From assembly GCF_000422785.1 (NCBI RefSeq), contig NZ_KE383920.1, forward strand, positions 62,001 to 126,000: a DNA stretch of 64,000 bases, read 5' to 3'. How positions within the stretch are numbered: position 1 is the first letter of the stretch; every line of letters begins with the position of its first letter. The stretch is from Pseudovibrio exalbescens DSM 16456. GTDB taxonomy: Bacteria > Pseudomonadota > Alphaproteobacteria > Rhizobiales > Stappiaceae. Made by a program: the position numbers and the translations under genes. This document shows positions 16,995 to 46,222 of this stretch, piece after piece. The notes beneath the pieces were generated by a model that saw nothing but the letters and a program-made list of their open reading frames with translations, was not told the origin of the DNA and did not search any database.

Positions 16995-18041
16995 TCAGCG
17001 ACCGTCTGCCGTTTCATGCGCGCTGCCAACCTCAACCGGCTCAAAGAACAGCGTTTCGGGTCGACGGGAGCAGGTGGAGCACAAATGCGGCTTGTCCGGT
17101 AGGGCATATTTGAGGCAACAGGCCTTGCGCCTCGGGGCATATTCTATGCGCCCTTCATTCTGGCGTTGTCTCCACACGATACCTCCGTTGATGTCACGGC
17201 CAAAACTGGTCAGGAACCGGCGCATGAGTGCCGCTACGTCTTGCGGGTGGGCACCATGTCGGCGCAAAGCCATGAACGGGCTCAACAACGCAATTGCCAC
17301 GCTGGAATAAAAAACAGGCTTGGGTGTTTTGCGCTTGCCCAGTGCCTCGTAAAGAACCTTGATGATCTCTTCCACCACGATGGATAACTGGAACAACTCG
17401 GAGGGCCCTCTGTCCGGGTCCAGATCCGTTTCTTCTGGTAGTATGCGCGGATCAAGGTAGAGCTCGAGCCACGGTGCCTTGGAGAGCGGCAGAAACCGCA
17501 GATCTGCGCAGGGTGGGGCACGACCGATAAGCAAATAATTGACGACAACACGGTTCAACAAGCTCTGTGCAACGGCTTTGAGAGCCTGAGACGCCGCCAG
17601 CTTCGGGGTGGTCGCTCCCCGTTGCTCGCGAAAGTGAGAAAGCAGCGGTGTGCACCAGCTGTCAAAATTGCGTTGGAAAGCCTCAAAGTCGCGCAGTTCT
17701 GCCATGGCAGCTGGGCCCGCGTAGGGCTGCACCAGTCTTCTTGTCAGTACTGTTTCGGCAGTTGGGGCATCAGTTTCCATTAACCGCAGGAACCGATAGG
17801 GCAGGCCAGCAGTTTCAGGATCCAGATCGGAAGGGGAAAGACGTCCGTATGAAGTGGCGTCGCCTCGCATGAAAGTCCCGTCGGTTAAAGCATGAAGCAG
17901 GGTCGCTGGCGAAGGCTGGCTTGATCCTGAACTCCAGTTTAACCGCCAGGTGAGAGGCGAGCAAGCGGAGGCGACAATTAAGGGCGCGTATTCAAAAGCT
18001 TGGAAGAAAGCGCCTGCTTTGAAAGACGACGCGCCAGCCAT
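16995..18041 (-). CDS. FhuF-like [2Fe-2S] siderophore reductase-type protein
   Basis: A 348-residue protein whose C-terminus carries the FhuF signature: CC at 308-309, then C321 and C324 (CC-x11-C-x2-C), the ligand set of the unusual [2Fe-2S] cluster of ferric-siderophore reductases. The upstream VVNYLLIGRAPPCADLRFLPL region also resembles that fold. The start overlaps the preceding P-loop gene by 64 bp, so this is the last gene of the STAS-lipoprotein-SLBB-P-loop unit unless it has its own promoter. No siderophore genes are nearby. Why a reductase-like protein should close an exopolysaccharide operon is not clear. Family assignment rests mostly on the cysteine motif. Confidence 0.7.
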   Translation of the reverse strand: MAGASSFKAGAFFQAFEYAPLIVASACSPLTWRLNWSSGSSQPSPATLLHALTDGTFMRGDATSYGRLSPSDLDPETAGLPYRFLRLMETDAPTAETVLTRRLVQPYAGPAAMAELRDFEAFQRNFDSWCTPLLSHFREQRGATTPKLAASQALKAVAQSLLNRVVVNYLLIGRAPPCADLRFLPLSKAPWLELYLDPRILPEETDLDPDRGPSELFQLSIVVEEIIKVLYEALGKRKTPKPVFYSSVAIALLSPFMALRRHGAHPQDVAALMRRFLTSFGRDINGGIVWRQRQNEGRIEYAPRRKACCLKYALPDKPHLCSTCSRRPETLFFEPVEVGSAHETADGR

Positions 18042-18679
18042 GGAAACACCCGGCGCAATCGCATGGCTTCCCGCGCCATTTCTTCGCCCAGTGTAGGGGC
18101 ATCTCTGTCATTGAGAACAAGGCCCGTCAGGGGGGTGCCGGTCGCCTGTATTGCCTCATAGGCATCGCTCAGGTTTTCATCGGTTACGGCACCAACCAGA
18201 TTGACCAGAACCACAGCCTCACAGGCGGAAATGCCAATGTTGGAGGGTAAGGCTGCCGGATTGGAATGCGGGACGGGAGGAAGGTCCACCACGATGGACC
18301 GGTAGTGAATCAAATCGCTGTTGAAGGCAATCCGCAAGCGATCAATGTCGCGCACGCGCATGGCGTCTGCAAGGTTTGCATGCAAGGTGAGCGTGTCATA
18401 CGGTTGGCCATTATCCTCATGAACACACGCTGCCGGCCCTCCTTGGCTTGGCTGCCATCCTCCGGCTGCAAGAGAAGGCTCCTTCTGAACCGAAGTTGAC
18501 AGGTCCACATAAAGGGTTTTTTGACTCGCAAGGCCAGAACGTGCAGCGAGAGCCTGCGCAAGGCTCGTCGTCCCACTTCCCCATAACGGCGCCGTAATCC
18601 CTACCGTACGAAGACCATGGCCGAGCGTTGCAGCGAAAAGCCGTTCAATTTCCAGCGTGGAAGGATCAAACCCGGTCAT
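17978..18679 (-). CDS. CpsD/Wzc-type P-loop protein with a degenerate Walker A
   Basis: A 233-residue ParA/BY-kinase-like protein placed where capsule and EPS loci carry the cytoplasmic partner of the chain-length protein (SypD-like position). The Walker A region reads APLWGSGTTSLAQALA at about 30-45, so the invariant lysine (GKS/T) is a threonine. A short Walker A' (LYVDLS, 57-62) and a Walker B-like IVVDLPP remain. There is no tyrosine-rich tail. ATP hydrolysis or kinase activity is therefore doubtful; a structural or regulatory role with the Wzz-like protein is inferred. It follows the SLBB gene by 26 bp. Confidence 0.75.
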   Translation of the reverse strand: MTGFDPSTLEIERLFAATLGHGLRTVGITAPLWGSGTTSLAQALAARSGLASQKTLYVDLSTSVQKEPSLAAGGWQPSQGGPAACVHEDNGQPYDTLTLHANLADAMRVRDIDRLRIAFNSDLIHYRSIVVDLPPVPHSNPAALPSNIGISACEAVVLVNLVGAVTDENLSDAYEAIQATGTPLTGLVLNDRDAPTLGEEMAREAMRLRRVFPWLARRLSKQALSSKLLNTRP

Positions 18680-18705
18680 CGTTTTCCTTTCCTTGCAAGA
18701 ACGAA

Positions 18706-21700
18706 TTAAAGCGCGCTGAACAGGGCAAACACGCTGACCGCCGACACGATATCTTGAAACTTGTCAAATACCTGACGCCAGTTGCTGCGTGAGATGTCGG
18801 GGACATAGATTGTGTCTCCAGCCCGCACTACAGGCAGTTGCTTCATGTTCCCGGTCTTTGCAAAGTCAAGCAAATTGAACAAGCGAGCCTGATCGCGGCA
18901 GCACGAGAGATTGACGATGAGGATCTTTTCAACGAGCGCGTTATCTTCCGGTCCGCCAGCTTCCGCCAACAAATCCAGAATAGTCATCTCGCTGTTGAAC
19001 TCATAGCGGCCCGGGCTGCCGACAGCGCCGAGTACCCGCACCGTGCTTTCCTTGGAAATATCCAGCCACTGGCGATCCTGATCGGGAATGTAGATCACAT
19101 CTCCGGTTCGAACCGACGGCAAGATGCTGTCATCACCCGTTTCCAGATAGAGAGCCAGATTCACCTTGCTGACACGTGCTCCGGGCTCGCTGCGATGGGT
19201 TACGCGAATATTGCGTAAATCCGCTGATGTGTTCGGCCCATCCGCTGCATTGAGGATGTCCAGAAAGTCCATCTGATTATTAAAGGCATACCGTCCCGGT
19301 GCCCCAACGGATCCCATTATGTAAATTGTATCCTCTGGGTCCTGCTGTACCCACTGGGATTTGTTGTCTGTCGGATCTTGTGGCAGCTCTGGCAATACGA
19401 CAAGCGAGTCTGCTGTCAATTTCGGTACTTCAGACAAGCTGCCGCCGAACTTCAGGAACCGGTCTGCATCAAAGCGCTGTGTGCGTGCCCGGCCGTTTTG
19501 ACGGTGGACCACTTGAAGTGACGACAGGTCGGCTTGCTCCGTTGGTCCTCCCGCTTCGGCTATTAGGTCGAAAAGCGTCATTTCGGGTGCCCATTCATAT
19601 CTCCCCGGACGAACCACCGCACCAATCACCTCAATGGCCCGCTCCGGAGGAATGCTGAGCCAGGACTTTTCAGTGGTCTCCGCCTTTTCCGGAATGAATA
19701 TCGCATCCCCCGGCGCGATTTCCGGCAGTTCGGTACCACGCCCTTCCGTAAAGGCTTGCAGGTCTATGGGAACAATGTCGCCATTGCTGCGGATCAGCCG
19801 TATCTGGCGTGTGTTCGCAAACCGGGTTGGGCCGCCTGCATTGGCCAGCAAATCGATGAATGAGGTCCTGGGCCGAAAAGTAAAGGCGCCCGGAGCGGCC
19901 ACTTCACCCATGGCATAGACAAAGCTGTCGCCTGCCAACGTGTCCTCTTGCTGTTTGGGTACAAAAATCGTGGATCCTTGATCCAGAACCGGCAGGATCT
20001 GGGAATTTCCAGTGTCGAGGTAGGCGTTCAGGTCGACCAGTTGCGGTTCGTCATCTGTTAACACGCGAATATCGCGAATATTGGCATAGCGGGTCACGCC
20101 GCCCGCGCGCATGAGGTAGTCGACCAGAGTTGTGTCTTGATCAAACGCGAAACTGCCCGGTGCGTTGACCTCGCCAAAAACCTTGATGGCTGTGCGCGCA
20201 TCGCCGCTATCGCCACGCTCGGAGAGGGTGCGACCGTCAAACTCGACTTCGATGTTGCCTGTGAGCGGGCTGGAGGGCACGAAAATCTCATCGCCCTGTT
20301 GCAACACGGGCAAGGTGTCTGGTTGGCCGGTATCCAGATAACGCTTGTAGTTGAAAGTCACCACCAGATCATTCGCTCGGCGCACTTGCATCCGGTCCAA
20401 CTGTGCCCCTTGTCGCAGTCCGCCGGCAGCCGTCAGCGCCTGTTGAACATTGGCATCCTCTGAGAGTGCCACTTCGCCGGGTTCGCGCACATATCCCATG
20501 ACGCGGATCTTCAGTGGACCCGTTCCAGCAGCGTCGTCGCGGCTGCGATCGGGAACAAGGATAATGGATCCGGCATCAAGCGCGGGAACCTCATCGAAAC
20601 TGCCGCCGTTTTCGAGGAAAGATGCCATGTCGAACCGGATGGAGTTCGCCCAGTCGCCGTCTCTGGTCACGACTTGGAGGTTTGTGACATCTGCGTCCGG
20701 GGTCGGCCCACCCGCTTGGGCAATAAGGTCGAACAGGGTCATTTCCTGTGACCATTCATAACGGCCGGGTTTGTTGACAGCACCAATTATCTCGATTGCT
20801 CGTTCTGGCGGTGTTTTCAGCCATGATGGTTCGTCGGTCTCTGTCTTTTCCGGCACGAACAGCGCATCACCCGCCTCGATAGTTGGCAGCTGTGTCCCGC
20901 CGCGCTCGGTAAAGCTGACCAGATCCACCATTTCCACGCTACCGTCACCCCGGATCAGACGGATGTTGCGCGTGTCGGCAAAACGTGTCGGGCCGCCCGC
21001 ATTGGCCAGAACATCAATGAACGTGGCATCATCGCGTCCCTCATAAGCGCCCGGTTTGGCCACTTCGCCCATGACATACACGGTGCTTTGACCTGCACGA
21101 ATTTCGTCCTTCTGTTGCGGAACAAAGATGGTCGCGCCTTCAGTGATGGGAACCAGAAATCGACTGTCACCGGTGTCCAGATACCGTTGCATGTTGAACA
21201 GCTTCGGTTCTCCATCATTGATGACGCGGATCTGCTCGACACTGGCGTATCGCGTCACACCGCCCGCGCGCATCAGGTAATCGATGATGGTGGCGCCATC
21301 TCTGAAGGCAAAGTTGGCCGGGTTATGAACTTCGCCCAATACCTTTATGGAGGCTGCTTCGTCTGCCGCATCGCCGGCCTCGGCAAGCCAGCGACCATCG
21401 AAATCGATTTCCACGTTGCCAATCAGCGGAGAAGCGGGAACGAAAATTCGGTCTCCCGTTTGCAATTGGGGAATGAGGTCGGGATCGCCGGTATCCAGGT
21501 AGCGCTTGTAATTGAAGGAGAGGGTCTGATCACCACGCCGGATCTGGACACCGTCCAACTGAGCGCCTTGGCGCAGGCCCCCGGCGGCGCTGAGGGCGAT
21601 CTGAACATTGGATTCCGCATCAAGAACGTACTCACCAGGTGCATCCACATAGCCCAAAACCGTCACCAAGACATTGCGCTTGAAAAGCGAGACCGCAAGC

Positions 21701-21987
21701 TGGTCCAGTTGCCGGAAAGCTTGAGAAAGGGCAGCGCGGATAGCCGCTTGCGCCTGGCTAACGGACAACCCTTCCACGCGCACATCACCCACTTCGGGTA
21801 ATGTTATGGTGCCATTGCGTTGAATTGTGAAAGGTTCCATGAACCCGTCTTCACCGGGCAGGAAAACGGTAATTTGATCGCCCACACCCAACGGCGCGCG
21901 ATCCGTGCTCTCCTGACTGCTCGCCAGTACCGTCATCATGATGGTGACGAGCATGAGCCCGATACCCAGAAGGCGCGGCGCTTTCAT
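18706..21987 (-). CDS. Giant SLBB-repeat polysaccharide export protein (Wza/SypC-like)
   Basis: A 1093-residue exported protein: signal peptide (about 1-23), a Poly_export domain (about 33-107, LGVGDQITVFLPGEDGF), then ten SLBB domains. Their first strands lie near residues 111, 217, 306, 401, 497, 604, 693, 788, 891 and 986 (pattern GEV/GAV-x-x-PG-x-Y). Domains 1-4 and 5-8 form a tandem duplication with a period of about 387 residues. The C-terminal helix (about 1070-1093, VFDKFQDIVSAVSVFALFSAL) could be the amphipathic helix that spans the outer membrane in Wza. Typical Wza is under 400 residues, so this one is far longer and might span more of the periplasm. The ATG overlaps the upstream lipoprotein stop (ATGA, 21984-21987). 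Confidence 0.93.
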   Translation of the reverse strand: MKAPRLLGIGLMLVTIMMTVLASSQESTDRAPLGVGDQITVFLPGEDGFMEPFTIQRNGTITLPEVGDVRVEGLSVSQAQAAIRAALSQAFRQLDQLAVSLFKRNVLVTVLGYVDAPGEYVLDAESNVQIALSAAGGLRQGAQLDGVQIRRGDQTLSFNYKRYLDTGDPDLIPQLQTGDRIFVPASPLIGNVEIDFDGRWLAEAGDAADEAASIKVLGEVHNPANFAFRDGATIIDYLMRAGGVTRYASVEQIRVINDGEPKLFNMQRYLDTGDSRFLVPITEGATIFVPQQKDEIRAGQSTVYVMGEVAKPGAYEGRDDATFIDVLANAGGPTRFADTRNIRLIRGDGSVEMVDLVSFTERGGTQLPTIEAGDALFVPEKTETDEPSWLKTPPERAIEIIGAVNKPGRYEWSQEMTLFDLIAQAGGPTPDADVTNLQVVTRDGDWANSIRFDMASFLENGGSFDEVPALDAGSIILVPDRSRDDAAGTGPLKIRVMGYVREPGEVALSEDANVQQALTAAGGLRQGAQLDRMQVRRANDLVVTFNYKRYLDTGQPDTLPVLQQGDEIFVPSSPLTGNIEVEFDGRTLSERGDSGDARTAIKVFGEVNAPGSFAFDQDTTLVDYLMRAGGVTRYANIRDIRVLTDDEPQLVDLNAYLDTGNSQILPVLDQGSTIFVPKQQEDTLAGDSFVYAMGEVAAPGAFTFRPRTSFIDLLANAGGPTRFANTRQIRLIRSNGDIVPIDLQAFTEGRGTELPEIAPGDAIFIPEKAETTEKSWLSIPPERAIEVIGAVVRPGRYEWAPEMTLFDLIAEAGGPTEQADLSSLQVVHRQNGRARTQRFDADRFLKFGGSLSEVPKLTADSLVVLPELPQDPTDNKSQWVQQDPEDTIYIMGSVGAPGRYAFNNQMDFLDILNAADGPNTSADLRNIRVTHRSEPGARVSKVNLALYLETGDDSILPSVRTGDVIYIPDQDRQWLDISKESTVRVLGAVGSPGRYEFNSEMTILDLLAEAGGPEDNALVEKILIVNLSCCRDQARLFNLLDFAKTGNMKQLPVVRAGDTIYVPDISRSNWRQVFDKFQDIVSAVSVFALFSAL
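19348..21669 (-). repeat. Intragenic tandem duplication of a four-SLBB block
   Basis: Protein residues about 107-493 (DNA 20509-21669) and 494-880 (19348-20508) align domain by domain with spacings of 386, 387, 387 and 387 residues. Shared blocks include GGLRQGAQLD, FNYKRYLDTG, DYLMRAGGVTRYA and ANAGGPTRFA. The DNA copies have diverged, so the duplication is not recent. Confidence 0.88.
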
Positions 21988-22328
21988 GATCCGGCTCCAG
22001 TCCTCAGACCTGCCCTTTGGCGATTGAGCTTTTTTTCAATCGTCTGAACATGAAACCAGAGCAGAGCCAAATCCTGTTCAGCATCGTAGGCCAGCCCGCC
22101 TGCCGCGGCCTGTTTGGCGGCGATCAATGTGGTGCGGGCCTTGTGGGTTTCCGCCGCAGCCCACCGTTCTGCGCCGCGCCGCTCGAGATCCTGAAGAATG
22201 ATTTCGTAGTCACGAATTGACCGCTGGTCGCTGGTGAAGCGTTCAGCGGCGCCGCCCGAGCCATGGTCGGGCCAGAATGTACATCCCGGCAGAGCCAACA
22301 CCAAAAGCGCAAAGAACAAAGTGCGCAT
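21984..22328 (-). CDS. Small lipoprotein in the polysaccharide operon
   Basis: From the ATG at 22328 the product is 114 residues, with a clear lipoprotein signal (MRTLFFALLVLALPGC). An in-frame ATG at 22361 overlaps the STAS stop (ATGA) and would allow coupled initiation, with the same cysteine used. The mature part is helical and alanine-rich with an (AAETHKARTTLIAAKQAAA) repeat, reminiscent of DUF4398 lipoproteins. It occupies the SypB position between the STAS and SLBB genes but has no OmpA domain. Probably an outer-membrane or periplasmic accessory of the export channel; I do not recognise a named family with confidence. Confidence 0.75.
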   Translation of the reverse strand: MRTLFFALLVLALPGCTFWPDHGSGGAAERFTSDQRSIRDYEIILQDLERRGAERWAAAETHKARTTLIAAKQAAAGGLAYDAEQDLALLWFHVQTIEKKLNRQRAGLRTGAGS

Positions 22329-22357
22329 CGCCAAGGGCAAGGGTCCCTGCGGGTGGA

Positions 22358-22645
22358 TCATGCGGCGGCGTCGCCCTCCGATGCGATGATGCGGTTGAGC
22401 TTGAGGTGTTTGAGAAGGCGCAAGGGTTGGCCGGAAACGTTTTCCAGTTTCAGCTCACGCTTGGCCATGGACAGACGCTTGTACAGGAACACGATCGCTC
22501 CAATCCCCGACGAGTCGATGAAGGTGGTCTGGCGAAGGTCCAGAACCACATCTTCCTTCTTGGCGACAATCTCGTCCAGCGTGTCGCGCATTCGGTCCAT
22601 TTCTGCAGCGTCCATATCCTGGGGCATTTCAAGTGTTAGGGCCAT
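22358..22645 (-). CDS. STAS-domain anti-sigma-factor-antagonist-like protein (SypA-like)
   Basis: A 95-residue single STAS domain. The phosphorylatable serine sits in FIDSSGIGAI (S45/S46), the position phosphorylated in SpoIIAA-type proteins. It heads the minus-strand export operon behind a sigma-54-type promoter, with GAAGGAA as ribosome binding site. In Vibrio fischeri, SypA is a STAS protein whose serine phosphorylation by SypE blocks biofilm formation. Here a HATPase-REC-PP2C protein at 43.6 kb has the right domains to act on it. The functional pairing is inference from family and locus. Confidence 0.88.
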   Translation of the reverse strand: MALTLEMPQDMDAAEMDRMRDTLDEIVAKKEDVVLDLRQTTFIDSSGIGAIVFLYKRLSMAKRELKLENVSGQPLRLLKHLKLNRIIASEGDAAA

Positions 22646-22708
22646 GGTGCGTTCCTTCTTGTGTTTTCGCCTCGCAACCGCAGCTCATCAGAACTGTTCG
22701 TAGAATGA

Positions 22709-22724
22709 AGCAATTCTCGTGCCC
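22709..22724 (-). promoter_or_regulatory. Sigma-54 (-24/-12) promoter of the STAS-SLBB operon
   Basis: The minus strand reads GGGCACGAGAATTGCT, matching TGGCACG-N4-TTGCW at 11 of 12 positions, with GG and GC exactly 10 bases apart. Transcription should start near 22698, giving a leader of about 53 bases before the STAS start at 22645. Confidence 0.82.
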
Positions 22725-22846: not shown

Positions 22847-22862
22847 TGGCACACCGGTTGCA
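22847..22862 (+). promoter_or_regulatory. Sigma-54 (-24/-12) promoter of the GT4-kinase-regulator operon
   Basis: TGGCACACCGGTTGCA matches TGGCACG-N4-TTGCW at 11 of 12 positions with the required GG-N10-GC spacing. The predicted start is near 22873, about 39 bases before the glycosyltransferase ATG at 22912. If the operon is continuous, it would also drive the hybrid kinase and the sigma-54 activator themselves. Confidence 0.84.
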
Positions 22863-22911: not shown

Positions 22912-23988
22912 ATGACAAGAAAAACGGTCCACATCATTCAGACACTCGCGCCCGGCGGCATTGAACTGCTGGTCATGCGCCTTGCTGCAGAAAACCCGGA
23001 GAAGACGCGCGTTCTGGTGCTGGATCAGGCCCCGGATCGTGGATCTGAAGCTTGGGATGTGGCCCATCAGTATGCGGTGAAGCCGCGCTTCATGGGAAAG
23101 CAGGCCGGTGTCTCTGTTCGGTTGATACGAGACCTGCGCCGAGTGCTTGCGCAGGACAGACCAGAGGCCGTTTTCACTCACCACATCGGCCCACTTTTAT
23201 ACGGTGGTCTGGCATCCCGCCTTGCCGGAGTGCCCAATCTGACGCAGGTGGAACATGATGCCTGGCACCTGGACAACACGCGTCAGCTCTGGCTAACCCG
23301 TGCCGCATACGCTCTGCTGCGCCCCAAAGTGGCTGCCGTCAGCAAGCCAGTCGCGCGCGAAATTGCGTTAAGAACCGGTCAATCGCAGGTGCTGGTGATC
23401 CCCAATGGTGTGGATGTGTCTCGGTTCAAGCCCGGTGACAAAGCCGAAGCGCGTGCTGTTTTCAACCTGCCAACCGACAAGACCATCGTCGGTGGGGTCG
23501 GGCGATTGGAATACGTCAAGGGCTTTGACATCCTGCTGCAGGCAGTCAGTCAGTTGCCTGAGGACTTTCATCTGGCGCTTGCTGGCTCAGGCAGTCAGAA
23601 AGAGACGCTTAAAGACCTTGCGGCCTCACTTGGTATGGCTGATCGCGTCAGTTTCCTGGGCAATGTCAACAAGGTTCATCGCCTGATGCCCGCGTTTGAT
23701 GTTCTGGCCGTATCCTCACGGGATGAAGGCCTGCCCCTTACGGTGATTGAAGCGCAAGCGGCCAATGTCCCTGTTGTTGCCACTGGTGTAGGCGGCATCC
23801 CGGATGCGGTGTGCCCTGAAGCAAGTCAAATCGTGCCACCGAATGATGCAGGTGCTTTAACGGCAGCCATTCTCATGATGTCTCAGGCACATGTGGCAGA
23901 TGCCCCGACGAAATTCGTACGCCGTATGTACAACTGGAAGGACACCATCAGGGCGTATGAGACGCTGGCACAGGGAGGCACGTTGTGA
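22912..23988 (+). CDS. Glycosyltransferase family 4 (SypP-like)
   Basis: A 358-residue GT-B glycosyltransferase. The N-terminal motif HIIQTLAPGGIELLVMRL is typical of GT4 enzymes that act on lipid-linked sugars. The C-terminal donor-binding domain has GVGRLEYVKGFDILLQA and the E-x7-E region SSRDEGLPLTVIEAQAANVPVVAT. It adds a sugar to the growing repeat unit on the cytoplasmic face. It is first in the rightward operon; its stop overlaps the next start (GTGA). The donor sugar cannot be told. Confidence 0.9.
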   Translation: MTRKTVHIIQTLAPGGIELLVMRLAAENPEKTRVLVLDQAPDRGSEAWDVAHQYAVKPRFMGKQAGVSVRLIRDLRRVLAQDRPEAVFTHHIGPLLYGGLASRLAGVPNLTQVEHDAWHLDNTRQLWLTRAAYALLRPKVAAVSKPVAREIALRTGQSQVLVIPNGVDVSRFKPGDKAEARAVFNLPTDKTIVGGVGRLEYVKGFDILLQAVSQLPEDFHLALAGSGSQKETLKDLAASLGMADRVSFLGNVNKVHRLMPAFDVLAVSSRDEGLPLTVIEAQAANVPVVATGVGGIPDAVCPEASQIVPPNDAGALTAAILMMSQAHVADAPTKFVRRMYNWKDTIRAYETLAQGGTL

Positions 23989-25799: not shown

Positions 25800-25814
25800 T
25801 GAAGGAGTGTGAAG

Positions 25815-29738: not shown

Positions 29739-29784
29739 CGCTGGCTACGTCCCGGCTGGCGATCCTCGATGAGTGCAGGACCCT

Positions 29785-37657: not shown

Positions 37658-38381
37658 AAAGCGGCTCCGCGGCAGTTTCGATGCGCCGGAGTATGCGCGC
37701 CGGGTTTCCGGCCGCTAGAACTCCTGCAGGAATGTCTTTGGTAACCACGCTGCCAGCGCCAACAACCGACCCCTCACCAATGGTCACACCGGCCAGCACC
37801 ACGGTTCCAAAACACAACCAGGCCCCGTTCTTGATGACGATATCGCCGACCTGATCATCGGTGTCCGGCAAGCCCGCCGCTCGATCCGCCGGATCCAGTG
37901 GGTGACCGGGATAACCGGCCAGAAAGCAACGTTCGGAAAGCCGCACATTGTCTTCAATGATGACCCGTGACCCAACTGCGATGGTGCATTGCCAGCCAAT
38001 ATCAACATTGTCGCCTACTTTCAGCAGAGGGCGGCTTTTGGAGGAACTGCGCCCGGTCATCGTGGTGTGTCCGGAAAGCCGCACATCATTGCCAATGGAA
38101 AAGTCGAGCGGGCCGAGGAGAAGTGGCATGCCGCCAAACAGATAAAGCCCCTTGCCGGAGTGGGTCAGCTGGCTGCGAAAGACCGGTGTTGTCCAGAAAA
38201 CACGCACAGCCCCGACAAACCCGCCCTTGAGCGCTCGGCTAAGTCCATAAAGCGCTCTGTGTAGGCCCGGAATAACAGGCACCGAACCCGCACGAAGTGA
38301 GCGCAAGCTGGAATAAAGCCAGCGTTTTGTTGGCGTGTCCTGTTGCTTGATCCATTGTTTCAACTGTGTGGTGCTGATCAA
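37641..38381 (-). CDS. Left-handed beta-helix acyltransferase (SypM-like)
   Basis: A 246-residue hexapeptide-repeat transferase; the repeats (I/V-G-x4) run over about 95-225, with the catalytic-type loop AGYPGHPLDPADRAAGLP and the terminal GAWLCFGTVVLAGVTIGEGSVVGAGSVVTKDIPAG. Such enzymes usually acetylate a sugar of the repeat unit with acetyl-CoA. It begins 13 bp after the polymerase gene. It fits the SypM slot, whose protein is a putative acetyltransferase. Confidence 0.88.
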   Translation of the reverse strand: MISTTQLKQWIKQQDTPTKRWLYSSLRSLRAGSVPVIPGLHRALYGLSRALKGGFVGAVRVFWTTPVFRSQLTHSGKGLYLFGGMPLLLGPLDFSIGNDVRLSGHTTMTGRSSSKSRPLLKVGDNVDIGWQCTIAVGSRVIIEDNVRLSERCFLAGYPGHPLDPADRAAGLPDTDDQVGDIVIKNGAWLCFGTVVLAGVTIGEGSVVGAGSVVTKDIPAGVLAAGNPARILRRIETAAEPLYDRTS

Positions 38382-39873: not shown

Positions 39874-41297
39874 GACAGGCTCGAAGCCCCTGCCGGTGAC
39901 AGATGCCCCCTGGCTTTGAGGCGCAGCATCACGGCATATCCCGCCGCCAGCATCGCAAGGCCAGCCGCCGCGGCATAAACCAGTTGCCATAGCAGCCCCG
40001 CCGAAAGCGGTTGGGCAACAACGGCAAGCACAGCAAGGCCGGTAAACAGGGCCATTTGTGGCAGCCGGTAGGGAATAGGCGCGCGTCGATGATAAAGGCC
40101 GAGAAACAGCAGGAGCCGCAGGCAGTGACCAATCAACGTTGCCAGAATGGCTCCGGCAACACCATAGCCGGGAGCCAACAGCCAATAGCCCAATACCGCA
40201 GCGCTACCTCCAGCCGCGTTCACGGCCAGAACATGAAGCCCGTGTTGGGCGCGATAGCTTCCCACATTCAGGAGCGAACACAATTCATTGAGGGCAAAGC
40301 CCAGCACAAGCCAAGGCACAAACGCAATCGCGGGCAGGTAGGAAGCCGGTAAAAGCCAGGCAATGAAGATTGGTGCCAAGAGGGCTGTACCCAAGGCGCC
40401 CACCACCAAGACCCAGAAGCCAAGCAGCACCACATCTGCTGAGTGAGACAGTCCCTGTGGTTCCTCCAGAACGGCGATCCGTTTGGCATACCACCACAAG
40501 CCGAACGGCTGTAACAGCAGCGGCGCTGCCAATGCCAGTTTCACGGCGATGGAATAGTGCGCAAGGGTCTCTGGGGCTATGGCGGTCACCAGGAACCAAC
40601 GGTCACAAGATCCCAACGCGAACATGGCCAACGCCCCACCGACTAGTGGCAGGCCGAAGTGGATGGTGCGTTGAAAACCTTGCCGGGAAAAGGCGATCCC
40701 GGTTCGCGAGATTTGCAGGGTGAGCAGGCTGAGGGCAAGCACCACATCAAGGGTGCCGTTGGCTACCAGAATGGCATTGATACCATACCCGTTCATCAAC
40801 AACACCACCATGGCAAGGGCCTGAAGAACGCCGCGCGATGCTGTAAAAAGCAAGAACAGCTTGGGCTTGCTGCCAAGACGCAACCACGCCAGCGGCAGCT
40901 CAATGAGGCCGCCGAGGGTCGCCCCCAAGATACTCAGTCTGAGGGCCCATTCCTGTATGGGAAGATCCCACGCCGAGATAACAACGGGTATGAAAAGCTG
41001 AACGAGAATGCCAAAAGCCAATGCCAGAACAAGAGCGCTTCCGGTGATGACCGCCGCTTCCCGGTTGCGTTCAGCCTGTGTGCGTTGCACGCCAGAAAAC
41101 CGAAACAGGGTATCAGCCAACCCCATGGCAAATATCAGCCCGATGAACTCCAGAAGAGAAGCCGCCACATCCAGATAGCCCACATCCTCTGGTGCCAAGT
41201 ATGCCGTCAGCACGGGAATGGTGATCACCGCAAGCCCCTTTGTCAGGGCGATGCTGGCAACATAGGGCCAGGCGTGCAGCACGCTTTTCAGCATCAT
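39870..41297 (-). CDS. Polysaccharide repeat-unit flippase (Wzx, SypK-like)
   Basis: A 475-residue MOP-superfamily transporter with about 12-14 helices and the typical start LHAWPYVASIALTKGLAVITIPVLTAYLAPEDVG with GYLDVA. It would move undecaprenyl-linked repeat units across the inner membrane. It starts 3 bp after the upstream glycosyltransferase stop and is coupled to the polymerase by ATGA. Confidence 0.9.
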   Translation of the reverse strand: MMLKSVLHAWPYVASIALTKGLAVITIPVLTAYLAPEDVGYLDVAASLLEFIGLIFAMGLADTLFRFSGVQRTQAERNREAAVITGSALVLALAFGILVQLFIPVVISAWDLPIQEWALRLSILGATLGGLIELPLAWLRLGSKPKLFLLFTASRGVLQALAMVVLLMNGYGINAILVANGTLDVVLALSLLTLQISRTGIAFSRQGFQRTIHFGLPLVGGALAMFALGSCDRWFLVTAIAPETLAHYSIAVKLALAAPLLLQPFGLWWYAKRIAVLEEPQGLSHSADVVLLGFWVLVVGALGTALLAPIFIAWLLPASYLPAIAFVPWLVLGFALNELCSLLNVGSYRAQHGLHVLAVNAAGGSAAVLGYWLLAPGYGVAGAILATLIGHCLRLLLFLGLYHRRAPIPYRLPQMALFTGLAVLAVVAQPLSAGLLWQLVYAAAAGLAMLAAGYAVMLRLKARGHLSPAGASSLS

Positions 41298-41300
41298 GCG

Positions 41301-42494
41301 TCAGGCTGCCTTTTTATGGGAGGTGATGCTCTCGATGCGGGCCGACAACGCACGGGCCTGCGCATTTTGCGTGAACAGGTCGCACACGCGGGCTCGTCCA
41401 GCCGCTCCCATCTCCTTCCGCGCCGAGGGCGATAACGCCATGAATTGCTCCAGCGTTTGGCGCAGCGCTTGTGGGTCAGCAGGTGGCACCTTGTAACCAC
41501 AGCTGGGTGTGATGGTCTCTTTCATACCCATGAAGTCGGTGGTGATGACAGGCAGAGCCATGGCCATGGCTTCCTTTGCCACCAAAGGGCCTGAATCGCG
41601 GGACTTGTCAGAGGCTTCCTTGAACGGCGCGACCAGCGCCATGTAGGCAGGTCCATGTTCTGCCAGCCACTCCGCAGGTTTGGGACCTAGAAACCTGAGG
41701 CCGCGATCCTCCAGTTGGAACCGGATGGCGAGCGCTGCCAGCTTCTCCTTCAAGGGGCCATCGCCCACGATGTCGATAGCGGGCATGGCAGGCCCCATAT
41801 CATTTAATGCCGTAAATAGGTCGTCGATGCCTTTTTGCTCCACCAGCCGTCCGATGAAGAGCAGTCGTCCATTGTCTTCCTGTTGAGGGCGGGGGGTAAA
41901 TTGCTCCGGGTCAATGCCGCAAGGGATCATTGAAATCGCCGCCGATCCACACAGTTTACGAAGGTCTTCAGCCATCTCGTCGCATACCGCAACAACGAAA
42001 TCGGCGGCAGCCAGTTTCTGCGGCAGGTCGATGGCCTCTGAGTACACGTCATGTCCGTGACAAACAAAGGAAACGCTGACGCCCATCAACCGTGCAGCGA
42101 CGATGGCATGAGCAGCTGCTGGACCAGAAAAATGGGCGTGAAAATGAGAAACGCCGGCGCTATGGGCAAGTCTGGCGATTTTCATGGCATTGCCCAACAG
42201 GGAGCGCAACGGCAGCCCTTTTTGCGCTCGGCAGAACTGCAAGGCGTCCAAAGAGGAGCCGGATAACGCCGGAAGCGCCTTCAGCGCGGCAAAGTCGCTG
42301 GCTTCGCTCACATAGTGGGTCCGTGCTGCCAAGGCTTCGTCATCTTTTTGTGCCGGGCCTGTTGGTCGGTGCAATGCCATGGGAACAACGGTGTGGCCTT
42401 GCGCTTCCATGGCACGGATTTCATTGCCCACGAACGTTTCCGAGAACACGGGAAAATCCGCCAGAACATATCCAAGAGTTTTCAAGGGCCACAT
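41301..42494 (-). CDS. Glycosyltransferase family 4 (SypJ-like position)
   Basis: A 397-residue GT-B glycosyltransferase beginning LGYVLADFPVFSETFVGNEI, a signature of exopolysaccharide GT4 enzymes (colanic-acid WcaL/AmsK type). It also has HFHAHFSGPAAAHAIVAARLMGV, LLFIGRLVEQKGIDDLFTAL and a donor-site region DSGPLVAKEAMAMALPVITTD. It is first of the minus-strand J-K-L-M-N block. GGAAAGG precedes the ATG, and a sigma-54-type promoter lies 93-108 bp upstream. Confidence 0.9.
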   Translation of the reverse strand: MWPLKTLGYVLADFPVFSETFVGNEIRAMEAQGHTVVPMALHRPTGPAQKDDEALAARTHYVSEASDFAALKALPALSGSSLDALQFCRAQKGLPLRSLLGNAMKIARLAHSAGVSHFHAHFSGPAAAHAIVAARLMGVSVSFVCHGHDVYSEAIDLPQKLAAADFVVAVCDEMAEDLRKLCGSAAISMIPCGIDPEQFTPRPQQEDNGRLLFIGRLVEQKGIDDLFTALNDMGPAMPAIDIVGDGPLKEKLAALAIRFQLEDRGLRFLGPKPAEWLAEHGPAYMALVAPFKEASDKSRDSGPLVAKEAMAMALPVITTDFMGMKETITPSCGYKVPPADPQALRQTLEQFMALSPSARKEMGAAGRARVCDLFTQNAQARALSARIESITSHKKAA

Positions 42495-42554
42495 CCTTTC
42501 CTAGTTATGGTGAGATGGCGGCGTGACCTGAACCACGAGTAATGCGGTCAGGAT

Positions 42555-42570
42555 TGGCTTGGAACCTGCA
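42555..42570 (+). promoter_or_regulatory. Sigma-54-type promoter of the GT2-switch protein operon
   Basis: TGGCTTGGAACCTGCA matches 9 of 12 consensus positions with exact GG-N10-GC spacing. The predicted start is near 42581, about 63 bases before the GT2 ATG at 42644. It is the weakest of the six. Confidence 0.6.
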
Positions 42571-42586
42571 AAGTCAAGGATCACGC

Positions 42587-42602
42587 AGCAAGCTCGGTGC
42601 CA
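42587..42602 (-). promoter_or_regulatory. Sigma-54 (-24/-12) promoter of the GT4-flippase-polymerase operon
   Basis: The minus strand reads TGGCACCGAGCTTGCT, 11 of 12 consensus positions, GG-N10-GC. The predicted start is near 42576, about 82 bases before the ATG at 42494. It lies just downstream of the rightward promoter's start, so the two units diverge through each other's promoter. Confidence 0.82.
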
Positions 42603-42643
42603 ATCGGCGCAGCGGATCGGGCTATAGCCGGGAGGAGGAGGTC

Positions 42644-43594
42644 ATGCCCACAGGGTGTTCTGTTGTCATTCCCACGAAGGATTGTCTGGTCTATCTCCAG
42701 CAGGCGATACAAAGTGTGATGGAGCAGTCTTTTGAACCTCTGGAGTTGATCGTTGTCGATGATGGATCAACGGATGGGACGCTGCCATATCTGGAGAATC
42801 TTGCGCGATCCAATGACAAGCTTGTTGTTCTCTCAGGACCCGGAAAGGGACCCGCTCTGGCCAGAAATATGGCCATTGAACAAGCCAGATACAGCCATAT
42901 CGCCTTTTTGGACGCAGATGACATCTGGTATCCGAACAAGTTGGGGCCTCAACTTGCTTGGCATCAGGCGTACTCGGACGCTGTGTTCAGCTTCACCGAT
43001 TACAGGCATCTCGATCCGCATGGTGTGGATATGGGCACATGCTTCGAATTTTGGCGCAATCAGTTCCAGCAATTGCCGCCTCGAGCCTTTGAGATGTTTC
43101 CTGAGGCACTGTCGCGCCTGCTGGCTGCCAACATCGTCGGCACGTCTACCGTTGTCGCAAAAACGAAAGCTTTGCGAAATGCGAATGGATTTGCAACGGA
43201 TCTGCCCTCCGCCGAGGATTGGGATTTGTGGTTGAGGCTGGCGGCGTCCGGCCCGGTCGGCATCAGCGGTACCGTGGCAATGGACTATCTTGTGCGCCCC
43301 GGTAGCGAGACCAAGAAGCGTGCCGCGCGCATTCAAGCCATGCAGACCATTTGCGCACGCTACGAACAGGAGCGTGCTCCGGCGGTTCAGAACGCGTTGA
43401 AGAAAGCACGAGCCAACATTTGGGTAGCTCAAGCCGAAATGCAGCGTGAAGAGGGGCACCCCGCCGCAGCATTGAGGGCGCATTTGCGAGCTGCCATGCT
43501 GGATCCACAGCGCAAGACCTTCGTTGCCATGTTGGCAGACGCCAAGAATGTGGTCCGGCCCAAACCTCTTGATGTGCGGGAGCGACAGCCTTGA
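42644..43594 (+). CDS. Glycosyltransferase family 2 (SypI-like position)
   Basis: A 316-residue GT-A glycosyltransferase: CSVVIPTKDCLVYLQQAIQS, LIVVDDGSTDGT, then AFLDADDIWYPNKL with the metal-binding DADD, and the acceptor-side AEDWDLWLRLA. I start at ATG 42644, which has GGGAGGAGGAGG just upstream. The in-frame ATG at 42542 would run through the promoter elements and adds an unconserved leader. Its stop overlaps the TTG start of the switch-protein gene. Confidence 0.88.
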   Translation: MPTGCSVVIPTKDCLVYLQQAIQSVMEQSFEPLELIVVDDGSTDGTLPYLENLARSNDKLVVLSGPGKGPALARNMAIEQARYSHIAFLDADDIWYPNKLGPQLAWHQAYSDAVFSFTDYRHLDPHGVDMGTCFEFWRNQFQQLPPRAFEMFPEALSRLLAANIVGTSTVVAKTKALRNANGFATDLPSAEDWDLWLRLAASGPVGISGTVAMDYLVRPGSETKKRAARIQAMQTICARYEQERAPAVQNALKKARANIWVAQAEMQREEGHPAAALRAHLRAAMLDPQRKTFVAMLADAKNVVRPKPLDVRERQP

Positions 43595-45135
43595 ACCTCT
43601 TTCAATCCGAGGCAGAGCCTACGTTGGACGGCATCTCTGTAGTGCGCCGCGCTTTGCGACGACGTTTGTCCAACCTGCACATTCCGGTTCAGGTCAGTGA
43701 TGATCTCCAACTCATTCTGTCGGAATGGGGGGCGAACCTGATCACGCACGCCAGCATGAAACCCACGAAAATAAGCGTTTCGCTGGATATGAAAGGCATG
43801 ACCCTCGTTCTGTCCATTCGCGATAACGGCAGCCCGTATCCGGAGGTTCTAGACTGTCTGTCCACGCTCTCGCCCGCCCTTCCAGATCCCATGACGCTTG
43901 AGAATGGTCGAGGTCTGGAATTGTTACACACCTTCAGCGACGGCCTGCGTTATGCCACCCGTGCTCCTGAGGGCAGGGTTGAAAACACCCTCTCGTTCTC
44001 CAGAGACCTGATGGACAATCGCCCCACCATTCTGGTGGTGGATGATGATCCCGCGCTTGCAAAGTCTTATGCGGCCTTTCTGGACGCGAACTTTCGCAGC
44101 CTCACGGCAACATCACTGGAAGAGGCCCAGCGCAAGGCCACAACCCAGCCGGTGGATCTTATTCTCACGGACTACCATCTGGAAGATGGCACGGGGGAAA
44201 CGCTGATCAGCCTTTTGGAAAATGACAGGGGGCGCCTGCCGGCACCTTTGCTTGTCATTACTGGCGATACAAGCGTGCGCTTGAAGGAAAAGCTGGAAGA
44301 ACGCGGCGTGGAAAGCATTATTTCCAAGCCCGTGCGTCCGCGCGAGTTGAACCGGTTGGTCAAAAACGCACTCGGTCGGTCTCATCGGCAACAGGCATTT
44401 CTTTTAAGGCATTTCGAGACAGTCTACCGGGACCTGCGGGGTGAGGCCAGAGAATGGCGGCAGCTGGGAGATATCCTCATCGAACACCTCGCGGCGGCTC
44501 GTGACACCGGGTCGGGCGATGCTGTCATCATGACACGGAGCGCCGAAGCCACCCGATTGATTCTCGTGGACATGGTGGGTCATGGTGTCAGCGCCCAAGC
44601 TGGTAGTGTGGCGTTTCTATCTATTTTGAGAACGGTAAACGCGCTATCTCCGGCGCTTTCATGCGTTGAGTATGTGCGTACTATCAACCGATTGATGACG
44701 CAGGATTTGGAGCTATCGGGTTTACTAAGCACCTTTCTGGTGGCGGATGTGTTGGAAGGCGGGCGCCTGCATCTTGCTTCTGCGGGCCATGTGCCTCCCA
44801 TTGTGGCTGAAGGGAACCGGGCGCATCCTCTCACCGTCTCGGGTGGTTTGATCGGGCTTGCGGGTGATGATGATTTCGAGCAGGTGGACTACACCCTGCG
44901 GCCCGGTGAATGCATGTTTCTTGTGAGCGACGGGCTGGACCCCTCTGGTCTTGCCAGCGGCGATCCCCTTCCGGACTGGCTACAGCGCGCCATGACTGCC
45001 TTTGCCTCAAGCCCGGAGCCTGATCCGGCACAAGGTGAACGCAGAAAAGCGCTATTGAGTGCCATCAACGCCGCGCTGGGCCCTGAACCGGCAGATGACT
45101 GGACCCTGTTGGCGGTGACGCGGTCCCGGTCGTAG
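43591..45135 (+). CDS. HATPase-REC-PP2C partner-switching protein (SypE-like)
   Basis: A 514-residue three-part regulator. An RsbW-type HATPase/serine-kinase domain (1-140) has N-box SEWGANLITHA, DNGSP and NGRGLELL. A receiver (about 144-262) has D194 in LTDYHLEDG and K246. A SpoIIE/PP2C phosphatase (about 300-512) has D327 in LVDMVGHGVSA, D447 in SDGLD and DDWTLLAV. SypE of V. fischeri has this order and both phosphorylates and dephosphorylates the STAS protein SypA. The natural client here is the STAS protein at 22358-22645. It starts TTG inside the GT2 stop codon (TTGA). Its last 71 bp overlap the convergent glycosyltransferase gene. Confidence 0.92.
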   Translation: MNLFQSEAEPTLDGISVVRRALRRRLSNLHIPVQVSDDLQLILSEWGANLITHASMKPTKISVSLDMKGMTLVLSIRDNGSPYPEVLDCLSTLSPALPDPMTLENGRGLELLHTFSDGLRYATRAPEGRVENTLSFSRDLMDNRPTILVVDDDPALAKSYAAFLDANFRSLTATSLEEAQRKATTQPVDLILTDYHLEDGTGETLISLLENDRGRLPAPLLVITGDTSVRLKEKLEERGVESIISKPVRPRELNRLVKNALGRSHRQQAFLLRHFETVYRDLRGEAREWRQLGDILIEHLAAARDTGSGDAVIMTRSAEATRLILVDMVGHGVSAQAGSVAFLSILRTVNALSPALSCVEYVRTINRLMTQDLELSGLLSTFLVADVLEGGRLHLASAGHVPPIVAEGNRAHPLTVSGGLIGLAGDDDFEQVDYTLRPGECMFLVSDGLDPSGLASGDPLPDWLQRAMTAFASSPEPDPAQGERRKALLSAINAALGPEPADDWTLLAVTRSRS

Positions 45136-46177
45136 GTGGTGAGGTTGGGCTCGATGTCAGCCTGAGACCTGCGTTTCGATAAACGTCCAGTATCAGAGGC
45201 AGCTTGGCCGCTGGTGAATAGTGAGAGCGGATCCGTTGCTGGCAGTTTGTGCGCATTTGCGTCAAGAACGCAGGTCGGGCTTGAACCCACTGCCGAAACG
45301 CTCGGCTCATATCCGTTAGATCTTCAGGGTCGTACAGCCATCCTGTAACGCCATGCTGGATCAGGTCCGGCAAGCCGCCAAGCCGCGGCGCAAGAACCGG
45401 TACGCCATGGGCCATGGCTTCAAGCGCGACAAGGGGCAGGCCCTCTGCTCGCGATGAAAGCACAATCAAACCCAGCGTGGGCCAGATGGGCTCAAGGTTT
45501 GACACCATGCCATGGAACTCGATCAGGCTTCCATATTTGGCCTCCAACTCCGGCCGCATGGGGCCGTCTCCATAAAGGTGCCAGTCCAGTGTGGGACGAC
45601 GAGGCTGTTGTGCGGCAAAGTCGCAGAACAGGTCCGGACCCTTTTCATGGGAAAGCCGTCCAACAAAGGCAACTGTGCGGCTGAGGGGGCGGTTCGTGTC
45701 CATGGCTGGACAGTTGATGAAGTTCTCAATGACCGTGGAAGCATAGGGCAAGCGGGCCGCAATCGGTCGGCTTACACTGATGCGCCGGGCCAGGAGCCCC
45801 GTATAGGCATCCAAAGTTTGATAAAGGGACACCGGGAAAGGTCCTGCTTCTCCCGCATGGTAGGTCGAGACCACGGGAATGCCGCGTGCCCGGCAGGCAA
45901 GCCTTCCCAGAATGCCGGCCTTGTAACCGTGGCTGTGTACCAACGCGGGGCGCTCCGCTGAAAGGCCACGCCACAGACCTTTCAGGCCGCCCTCCAGAAT
46001 GGTGAATGGCAGACCGGCCATGGTTAGCTGATCCAGCCATGGGTTGTTGTCGTGAGGGGCCAGAAGCACGACACGTACATCCAGCCCTTGGGCCTTCAGC
46101 GTTTGAGCCAGTACGAGGATGTGTTTTTCGATGCCGCCGATGCCACTGGAATCGACGAGTTGCCAGATGGGTGCCAT
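45065..46177 (-). CDS. Glycosyltransferase family 4 (SypH-like position)
   Basis: A 370-residue GT-B enzyme starting WQLVDSSGIGGIEKHILVLAQTL, with VHSHGYKAGILGRLACRARG, FVGRLSHEKGPDLFCDFA and donor-site SSRAEGLPLVALEAMAHGVPVLAPR. The C-terminal 30 residues are Thr/Ser/Pro-rich and lie in the overlap with the switch-protein gene. The start is ATG 46177, with AGGAC upstream. The in-frame TTG at 46207 falls inside the -12 box of the promoter and can be ruled out if that promoter is used. It closes the polysaccharide locus on the right. Confidence 0.9.
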   Translation of the reverse strand: MAPIWQLVDSSGIGGIEKHILVLAQTLKAQGLDVRVVLLAPHDNNPWLDQLTMAGLPFTILEGGLKGLWRGLSAERPALVHSHGYKAGILGRLACRARGIPVVSTYHAGEAGPFPVSLYQTLDAYTGLLARRISVSRPIAARLPYASTVIENFINCPAMDTNRPLSRTVAFVGRLSHEKGPDLFCDFAAQQPRRPTLDWHLYGDGPMRPELEAKYGSLIEFHGMVSNLEPIWPTLGLIVLSSRAEGLPLVALEAMAHGVPVLAPRLGGLPDLIQHGVTGWLYDPEDLTDMSRAFRQWVQARPAFLTQMRTNCQQRIRSHYSPAAKLPLILDVYRNAGLRLTSSPTSPPTTGTASPPTGSSHLPVQGPARR

Positions 46178-46206
46178 GGGTGTCCTGCGTTTTTTCAGAA
46201 ACGCCA

Positions 46207-46222
46207 AGCAACTCGGATGCCA
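46207..46222 (-). promoter_or_regulatory. Sigma-54 (-24/-12) promoter of the terminal GT4 gene
   Basis: The minus strand reads TGGCATCCGAGTTGCT, 10 of 12 consensus positions, GG-N10-GC. The predicted start is near 46196, about 19 bases before the ATG at 46177. It sits in the short gap after the EamA gene, so the glycosyltransferase need not depend on that gene's promoter. Confidence 0.78.

Follow-up and report, generated by a model that had tools for sequence, protein, structure and literature searches.

The stretch of DNA analysed here (the window) comprises 64,000 nucleotides of Pseudovibrio exalbescens DSM 16456 (contig NZ_KE383920.1, positions 62,001 to 126,000 of the forward strand) and holds, between positions 17978 and 46207, a 28-kb block which, judged by its sequence, is a gene cluster for making, exporting and switching on a surface polysaccharide, homologous to the syp locus of Aliivibrio (Vibrio) fischeri, the glowing squid symbiont which uses its syp cluster for host colonisation. 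A first-pass annotation had proposed an alphaproteobacterial syp-like symbiosis/biofilm polysaccharide locus here; this identification was right in substance with three corrections (to the left boundary, SypB and SypJ), while nothing in the present analysis supports the label "symbiosis". The genes and predicted control sites of the block are collected in Table 1.

The open reading frames (ORFs) of the A. fischeri region, to which the letters sypA to sypR were given by gene order, were compared one by one with the window proteins. Fifteen of the 18 A. fischeri Syp proteins were clearly matched in the window and SypB weakly, leaving SypI and SypJ without an orthologue; identities for K, L, O and R were 28, 54, 36 and 61% respectively. 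Gene order is kept beyond chance: counting 16 genes (with the weak B included and Q and R taken apart), 10 of 15 neighbour pairs are also neighbours in A. fischeri, and none of 200,000 random gene orders reached 10 kept pairs (the maximum was 8). The annotated orders J-K-L-M-N...O and P-Q/R were sound for K-L-M-N...O and P-Q-R, the "J" being no SypJ orthologue, and the block is indeed broken into divergent units, unlike A. fischeri syp.

Pfam bore out most of the classes named in the first-pass annotation: the STAS protein, the SLBB exporter, the HATPase-REC-SpoIIE protein, the hybrid kinase with HPt and the sigma-54 response regulator, together with glycosyltransferases, Wzx, Wzy, the acyltransferase, the Wzz/GNVR protein and the fused Q/R. 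The P-loop partner D has no Pfam match, its match to a tyrosine-autokinase model being weak and below the cut-off, yet it matches SypD (26%, 1e-21). The "OmpA-like lipoprotein B" did not hold up, as neither lipoprotein of the block (21984-22361 and 33121-34068) matches OmpA in Pfam even at an E-value of 5; A. fischeri SypB itself matches it at 9e-19. The 33121 lipoprotein, tried as SypB, gave no match, and it is the 21984 lipoprotein instead that aligns with the N-terminal half of SypB. Among the glycosyltransferases annotated as H, I, J, N and P, those for N, P and H (the 45065 gene) stood and those for I and J did not: the match of the "J" at 41301 to SypJ is at chance level, the best match of SypI is the P glycosyltransferase (26%, 3e-23), which is a generic glycosyltransferase similarity and SypP matches P better, and the best match of SypJ is the 45065 protein (7e-6), which is better matched by SypH. 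Missing from the first-pass list were the GH123-like protein (34116), the molybdopterin-domain-like protein (25809) and the GT2 glycosyltransferase (42542).

Table 1. Genes and predicted control sites of the syp-like block (window coordinates; identities and E-values are to A. fischeri proteins where a Syp protein is named).
Feature	Position	Strand	Evidence
SypD-like P-loop partner of exporter	17978..18679	-	26% to SypD, E 1e-21; 60.7% and 58.2% in the two congeners with D covered
SypC-like SLBB/Poly_export exporter, 1093 aa, many SLBB domains	18706..21987	-	Pfam; 53% to SypC over residues 492-1093
Lipoprotein in SypB position, resembling SypB N-terminal half, without OmpA	21984..22361	-	E 0.007 to SypB; alignment
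SypA-like STAS protein, phosphorylatable Ser kept (FIDSSGIG)	22358..22645	-	Pfam STAS 2e-15; 42% to SypA, 9e-20; alignment
Predicted sigma-54 promoter of A-B-C-D	22709..22724	-	1 mismatch; at like distance in 4/4 genomes, scores 16.6-19.1
Predicted enhancer, LuxO-type TTGCAWWWTGCAA with 1 mismatch, reads TTGCAAATCGCAA	22785..22797	+	between divergent A and P promoters
Predicted sigma-54 promoter of P-QR-25809-F-G	22847..22862	+	0 mismatches; 4/4 genomes, scores 19.4-20.1
SypP-like GT4 glycosyltransferase	22912..23988	+	34% to SypP, 7e-73
Fused SypQ (GT2)-SypR (polyprenyl sugar-phosphate transferase)	23985..25799	+	38% to SypQ, 61% to SypR; Pfam
Small molybdopterin-domain-like protein; hydrophobic N-terminus, no cysteine (by eye)	25809..26336	+	PF00174 1.2e-6
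SypF-like hybrid kinase (PAS_7, HisKA, HATPase, REC, HPt)	26300..29722	+	Pfam; 35% to SypF, 3e-72
SypG/LuxO-like sigma-54 response regulator (REC-sigma54-HTH_8)	29773..31476	+	Pfam; 43% to SypG, 4e-151; tree
SypO-like Wzz/GNVR chain-length protein	31490..32998	-	36% to SypO, 7e-105; Pfam matches just below cut-off
Fast-evolving lipoprotein between GH123-like gene and O, not SypB	33121..34068	-	no Pfam match at E 5; 22-33% in 3/3 congeners
GH123-like predicted beta-N-acetylhexosaminidase, 818 aa	34116..36506 (ORF to 36572)	-	fold prediction, Asp-Glu pair
SypN-like glycosyltransferase	36524..37657	-	45% to SypN, 1e-117
SypM-like hexapeptide acyltransferase	37641..38381	-	45% to SypM, 3e-75
SypL-like Wzy/O-antigen-ligase-type polymerase	38395..39879 (ORF to 40185)	-	54% to SypL, 3e-143; Pfam Wzy_C; SypL profile
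SypK-like Wzx flippase	39870..41297	-	28% to SypK, 2e-43
GT4 in SypI/J position, not a clear SypI or SypJ orthologue	41301..42494	-	comparison with A. fischeri and congeners
GT2 glycosyltransferase, no A. fischeri syp counterpart	42542..43594, true start near 42644	+	Pfam
Predicted weaker sigma-54 promoter of GT2-E, facing J promoter	42555..42570	+	16.9 in window; 17.9 at like distance in 3/3 congeners
Predicted sigma-54 promoter of J-K-L-M-N-GH-lipoprotein-O	42587..42602	-	0 mismatches; 4/4 genomes (G011: before K), 18.6-19.6
SypE-like HATPase-REC-SpoIIE/PP2C serine kinase/phosphatase	43591..45135	+	Pfam; 25% to SypE, 1e-29; tree
SypH-like GT4	45065..46207	-	37% to SypH, 6e-74; Pfam
Predicted sigma-54 promoter of H	46207..46222	-	1 mismatch; 3/4 genomes

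The outer flank genes, AAA/DUF87 (15496) and malate synthase (47410), were present in all 16 species of the genus examined and a full E gene in four of them. Among the 12 species in which no E was found, 11 have the FhuF-C-like gene (16995-18041 in the window; Pfam E 0.033) directly beside the EamA gene which forms the other flank (46232), giving an empty site, and the other window proteins, searched for between the flanks of those 11 species, were not found; in the twelfth (G001) the flanks are on two contigs. The block is therefore 17978 to 46207, one unit that is present or absent at one site. Of the annotated span, 16995 to 46222, the block itself stood and the left edge did not, as the 16995 gene, which adjoins the EamA gene in genomes without the block, was rejected as a member of the locus. 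The block is syntenic in the four carriers apart from three exceptions: D of G008, which fell beyond the stretch fetched, J, which G011 lacks at this position, and the 25809 gene, found among the three congeners used for comparison (G008, G011 and G012) only in G008. A tree of the two flank genes did not settle whether the four carriers form a clade (61/74).

The regulators also place the locus in the syp family. In a tree of 58 rows the window G fell among 17 alphaproteobacterial syp-locus regulators that form one set at 100/100, and the SypG/LuxO group that includes it was split by a 100/99 branch from 10 of 11 NtrC-type outgroup rows, the eleventh (the own-genome paralogue L141, on a long branch) falling inside the group; three alphaproteobacterial syp-locus rows (L040, L042 and L045) lay outside the 17-row set, and among the rows of the tree L148, L151 and L155 are without a shown syp locus while L147 and L152 are a few kb outside the stretch fetched. 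For E, a midpoint-rooted tree of 28 rows, only two of them non-syp rows serving as contrast, grouped the window protein with syp-locus E proteins in a set of 18 (99/99); two alphaproteobacterial rows (L042 and L045) lay outside this set, and L060, with no class in its record, was labelled alphaproteobacterial by us. The three Pfam domains of the window E (HATPase, REC, SpoIIE) are identical to those of SypE, and the four congeneric E proteins all keep the SypE kinase asparagine and the phosphatase aspartates. S56 of SypA is the residue that SypE phosphorylates or dephosphorylates (PMC4517449, PMC3610818), and SypE is reported as absent from V. parahaemolyticus and V. vulnificus (PMC8941931, PMC4517449); in alignment, the window A keeps the phosphorylated serine motif of SypA, to which it is 42% identical. 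E, A and G were thus not found among unrelated partner-switch or NtrC families in a gene order matching other exopolysaccharide (EPS) loci, the outcome which the first-pass annotation had named as speaking against it; the trees, the SypA identity and the order fit syp.

E-like proteins (full, or REC-PP2C only) were also seen beside a STAS gene in G440 (L043/L044) and G193 (L046), and no syp structural genes were seen in the stretches around these pairs. As such pairs occur outside syp loci, the E-A pair alone is not diagnostic. The tree of 58 rows joined LuxO with a Pseudoalteromonas gene (98/88), but once eight rows had been removed (L141, which is the own-genome paralogue, L147, L152 and five outgroup rows on long branches), a single clade of all syp regulators was not rejected by an approximately unbiased (AU) test (p 0.135), and since this allows a sister position the firm claim that LuxO is nested inside the syp regulators was dropped. 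L147 (G805, Pseudoalteromonas sp. P1-9), which joins LuxO in one tree, has an E-like protein (2945-4360) beside its LuxO/SypG-like regulator (1474-2925; 666 bits on the LuxO model).

Sites were scored against the sigma-54 consensus TGGCACN5TTGCW (maximum score 20.1) in the window and the three congeners, and the predicted sigma-54 promoters before five units, conserved in the congeners, are new here. Five of the 10 window sites with at most 1 mismatch stand before unit starts in the correct orientation, and the genome has one RpoN. The predicted GT2-E site, at 16.9 in the window, is no better than some control sites, and a sigma-54-like site before O was rejected as it is in the window only and not conserved. 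F and G lie 3' of P-Q/R on the same strand and therefore probably belong to the P operon and reinforce their own expression. In 4/4 genomes the predicted promoters of J and GT2-E (42555-42602) point towards each other, and the J operon and E may interfere with each other's transcription.

The LuxO enhancer is given as TTGCAWWWTGCAA; at qrr1 the sites used by SypG and by LuxO overlap, but syp promoters respond to SypG and not to LuxO, the cause of this insulation being named as undetermined (PMC10162802). In the region between the A and P promoters, LuxO-type copies were present in G012 (0 mismatches), G011 (1), G008 (2) and G480 (three copies with 0-1), as well as in the window, and the SypG enhancer in its stricter TTCTCANNNTGC form was looked for in the window block and not found. 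To set this against other loci we used a scan for SypL-like proteins (from an alignment of seven of them) in which 360 stretches matched and 348 encode relatives; the best 80, including A. fischeri (L118), were analysed, their flanks ending at 10 kb or at contig ends so that counts of gene content are lower bounds. They comprised 22 alphaproteobacterial, 36 non-Vibrionaceae gammaproteobacterial and 21 Vibrionaceae loci and 1 without class. The LuxO-type motif (at most 1 mismatch) was found in 11/22, 28/36, 5/21 and 0/1 of these respectively, and the SypG motif TTCTCANNNTGM in 0/22, 9/36, 20/21 and 0/1. Against first-order random sequences (5 draws), LuxO-motif sites numbered 16 vs 0.4 in the alphaproteobacterial, 73 vs 15.0 in the other gammaproteobacterial and 5 vs 6.6 in the Vibrionaceae loci, and SypG-motif sites 0 vs 0.4, 11 vs 4.6 and 54 vs 5.2; the Vibrionaceae row for the SypG motif serves as a positive control because TTCTCANNNTGM is the published SypG site. 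A second shuffle set (4 or 20 draws) gave, for the LuxO motif, 16 vs 1.0 (highest 2) in the alphaproteobacterial loci, 11 vs 1.15 (highest 6) in four further genomes, 5 vs 1.3 (highest 3) in the congeners, 1 vs 0.15 in the window block and 0 vs 0.55 in A. fischeri. The 22 alphaproteobacterial loci include near copies (Beijerinckiaceae and related metagenome-assembled genomes), so their enhancer sites are not independent, and by a crude mask 9 of the 16 alphaproteobacterial LuxO-type sites and 25 of the 54 Vibrionaceae SypG-motif sites lie outside homologous ORFs. No claim is made for enhancer-like sites within the GT2 coding sequence, as they may just reflect conserved protein letters.

This split between enhancer types, seen in motif counts, is new here and suggests how syp became insulated from the quorum-sensing LuxO in vibrios. 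We tentatively offer a reading which we rate at somewhat less than an even chance: that TTGCAWWWTGCAA is the ancestral syp control element across Alpha- and Gammaproteobacteria, that LuxO derives from or is sister to the syp activator, and that in the Vibrionaceae, which have both SypG and LuxO, SypG and the syp enhancers moved jointly to TTCTCANNNTGM, which would have insulated syp from LuxO.

Between N and O lies a gene for an 818-residue protein (34116) which has no Pfam match even at an E-value of 5 and gave weak matches in a sequence search of the PDB, the first being a GH2 glucuronidase (E 0.036). Its AlphaFold2 model (predicted local distance difference test, pLDDT, 82.8; predicted template-modelling score, pTM, 0.83) was compared by Foldseek, and the 21 best matches were all GH123-type beta-N-acetylgalactosaminidases or beta-N-acetylhexosaminidases (E 1e-17 to 1e-13; template-modelling (TM) score 0.48-0.60 by target and 0.35-0.41 by query; identity 10-14%). 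The family trait tested was a beta-sandwich and TIM barrel with a catalytic vicinal Asp-Glu, this consecutive pair being the catalytic one in GH123 (PMC11087588), and Asp602-Glu603 is invariant in 13/13 aligned relatives within W-x3-D-E-P. With the GH123-type beta-N-acetylgalactosaminidases BvGH123, NgaDssm and NgaCa the protein thus shares the predicted fold and the invariant pair, differing in its low identity, its lack of a Pfam match, its length (about 800 residues vs 496-583 in the 21 best PDB matches) and its encoding in a biosynthesis cluster. All three congeners, G224, G337 and a plasmid locus of Plesiomonas shigelloides have relatives of it, as do at least 13 of the best 80 loci, and none was found in the A. 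fischeri syp locus. The low identity and query TM scores and the absence of a Pfam match would also suit a protein whose GH123 fold is inactive and serves for structure or binding, but we consider this rather unlikely given that the GH123 catalytic motif is invariant in the relatives. From the model, the likeliest role would be that of an exported hydrolase editing an N-acetylhexosamine-containing polymer, and the presence of such a predicted GH123-like protein inside a syp-like locus is new here.

Of the other genes outside the A. fischeri set, the GT2 (42542) has relatives in at least 33 of the best 80 of the 348 syp-like loci. A 25809-type gene adjoins F also in G008 and G167, and no homologue was found in G011, in G012 or in the best 80 of the 348 loci; standing beside the hybrid kinase, its product is perhaps a periplasmic sensor partner. 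Q and R are separate genes in G224 and in Plesiomonas.

This kind of locus is already known, since syp/scv loci have been published for three alphaproteobacterial genera (PMC8941931, PMC11059613): relatives of the scv locus of V. parahaemolyticus are reported from 28 genera, the alphaproteobacterial ones being Elstera and Terasakiella (PMC8941931), and an 18-gene syp locus from Aquabacter pokkalii (PMC11059613). The scv loci were found with ScvC, ScvL and ScvO as queries (PMC8941931), which by gene order presumably are SypC, SypO and SypR, and C (53%), O (36%) and R (61%) are co-located in the window as that search requires. Members without B, F or M and scvN-scvO fusions are also reported (PMC8941931), the latter resembling the Q/R fusion of the window by the naming of scvN there and by gene order. 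The abstract and sections 3, 5 and 10 of PMC8941931 make no mention of a GH123-like gene, of the enhancer split or of presence or absence of the block within an alphaproteobacterial genus, and our literature search returned no paper on syp in Plesiomonas nor on syp with LuxO in Rhizobiales. Within the class, SypL-like proteins were found in 10/385 sampled genomes, the window included, and E-profile matches at 1e-30 in 6/385 (G193 without the kinase part), with 3/398 in the phylum sample.

With A. fischeri syp the window shares 15 of 18 products, the STAS and HATPase-REC-PP2C switch, the hybrid kinase and sigma-54 activator, Wzx/Wzy assembly and the same order of K-L-M-N...O, P-Q-R and A-B-C-D. 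It differs in its divergent units, the fusion of Q and R, a SypB-like protein without OmpA, the lack of a clear SypI or SypJ, a larger SypC-like protein (1093 vs 714 residues), a LuxO-type enhancer where A. fischeri has TTCTCANNNTGM, and the extra GT2, GH123-like, molybdopterin-domain and 33121 lipoprotein genes. A plasmid of the gammaproteobacterium P. shigelloides (NZ_CP062197.1, L050) has STAS, SLBB, D, SpoIIE, P, Q, R, O, GH123-like, N, M, K, L and H genes in one cluster, together with two small unnamed proteins. Its Q and R are unfused, and in the stretch fetched neither a SypF- nor a SypG-like gene was found, just a LytTR-type regulator matching the G receiver. This cluster lies at 3335-24958 of the 302-kb plasmid p1, near a pgaABCD set, and homologues of L and N are also present on another plasmid of this species (NZ_CP027853.1).

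Several observations weigh against assigning the block to the syp family with syp-like control. D, E and K are only 25-28% identical to the A. fischeri proteins, and the OmpA part of SypB and orthologues of SypI and SypJ, looked for among the window proteins, were not found. Within the window, sigma-54-like matches with at most 2 mismatches are about as frequent as expected by chance (51 vs 50.4), as are enhancer-like matches (6 vs 6.67), and the case for both kinds of site rests on placement and conservation for this reason. Control stretches of the window before G, the 33121 lipoprotein and O score up to 16.9, 17.9 and 18.6 respectively, with no like sites in the congeners, and H is without a site in G012. 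The absence of TTCTCANNNTGM from all 22 alphaproteobacterial loci also counts here, 11 of these being without a LuxO-type site as well, as does the scoring of the window G in A. fischeri, at 433 bits against LuxO and 416 against SypG.

This last point, with LuxO as the best A. fischeri match of G, leads to a reading in which the locus is a syp-like polysaccharide locus but G is functionally a LuxO-type regulator serving another signal and not fed by F. The best NCBIfam model of G is LuxO as well (567 bits against a cut-off of 800) and there is a LuxO-type enhancer at the A/P region, but A. fischeri SypG itself scores 604 on that model, which gives 828 for A. fischeri LuxO (the LuxO rows of the G tree were named by it, with 828 and 867 bits for 2/4 rows). 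G lies under the cut-off and in the syp-locus set, outside the Vibrionaceae LuxO clade, and so does not qualify as LuxO; F and G are adjacent in the window and in 9/9 other alphaproteobacterial loci where both were found; and an Rfam scan of the window returned no family, so that no Qrr target RNA was seen there. We therefore consider this reading unlikely. Less probable still is a general alphaproteobacterial Wzx/Wzy EPS locus which made its own recruitment of STAS, PP2C and NtrC-type regulators and has a mere likeness to syp: most of the parts belong to common families, several proteins match XrtA/PEP-CTERM models (TIGR03027, TIGR03007, TIGR03097), the order is broken into divergent units and E-like and STAS pairs occur away from syp genes (G440, G193), but L, M, N and R are 45-61% identical to A. 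fischeri, G and E group with syp-locus regulators in the trees and the syp gene order is kept, so that protein matches, trees and order largely contradict it. An XrtA/PEP-CTERM (exosortase) polysaccharide locus was rejected as scarcely credible, for although C is above the TIGR03027 cut-off (298 vs 180 bits) and O and L match exosortase-associated models below cut-off, the other models stay under their cut-offs, the proteins match syp counterparts and no exosortase (PF09721 match) was found in the genome (36 contigs, 99.9% complete).

We thus hold it highly probable that the block is a syp-family (syp/scv/rbd) Wzx/Wzy-type EPS locus of an alphaproteobacterium working by the following mechanism, for which the functions of the A. 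fischeri parts were drawn from PMC4517449, PMC3610818 and PMC8941931. Its basis is the homology, order and domains, the conserved active residues in E and A, the conservation of promoter and enhancer sequences and the single RpoN. In a putative phosphorelay, two response regulators would receive phosphate from the F kinase through the REC and HPt domains of the latter. G would assemble on the LuxO-type enhancer common to the divergent A and P promoters and drive RpoN polymerase at the promoters of the presumed operons A-B-C-D, P-Q/R-25809-F-G, J-K-L-M-N-GH-lipoprotein-O, GT2-E and H, with F and G, within the P unit, feeding back on themselves. In a putative partner switch, E would phosphorylate or dephosphorylate the conserved serine of the STAS protein A, thereby blocking or permitting biofilm after transcription. 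Q/R would start the lipid-linked repeat unit, which the other transferases and M would complete, K would flip and L would polymerise under the control of O, and C, D and the lipoprotein would export the polymer. The GH123-like protein, once exported, may trim or release the polymer, whose presumed chemistry includes N-acetylhexosamine as the presumed substrate of this activity.

Elsewhere in the window, a 254-bp tandem unit (2.8 copies, 60987-61692) stands beside a MeaB-like gene (61700-62704), and a 42-bp tandem repeat (2.8 copies, 93%) lies at 53331-53446.

Whether a bacterium colonises its animal host can be decided by a polysaccharide, for which the syp locus is a model case, and the papers on its function cited here concern vibrios. 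The alphaproteobacterial form keeps the kinase, the activator and the partner switch while its layout, enhancer and enzymes have changed, and so it shows which parts are essential and which are free. Within the genus, the four of 16 species with the block and the 11 with an empty site offer natural comparisons with and without it, and the GH123-like protein bears on the kind of sugar bond in the polymer. The most valuable new lead is the enhancer split, which bears on the insulation of syp from LuxO in V. fischeri and suggests how it may have come about.

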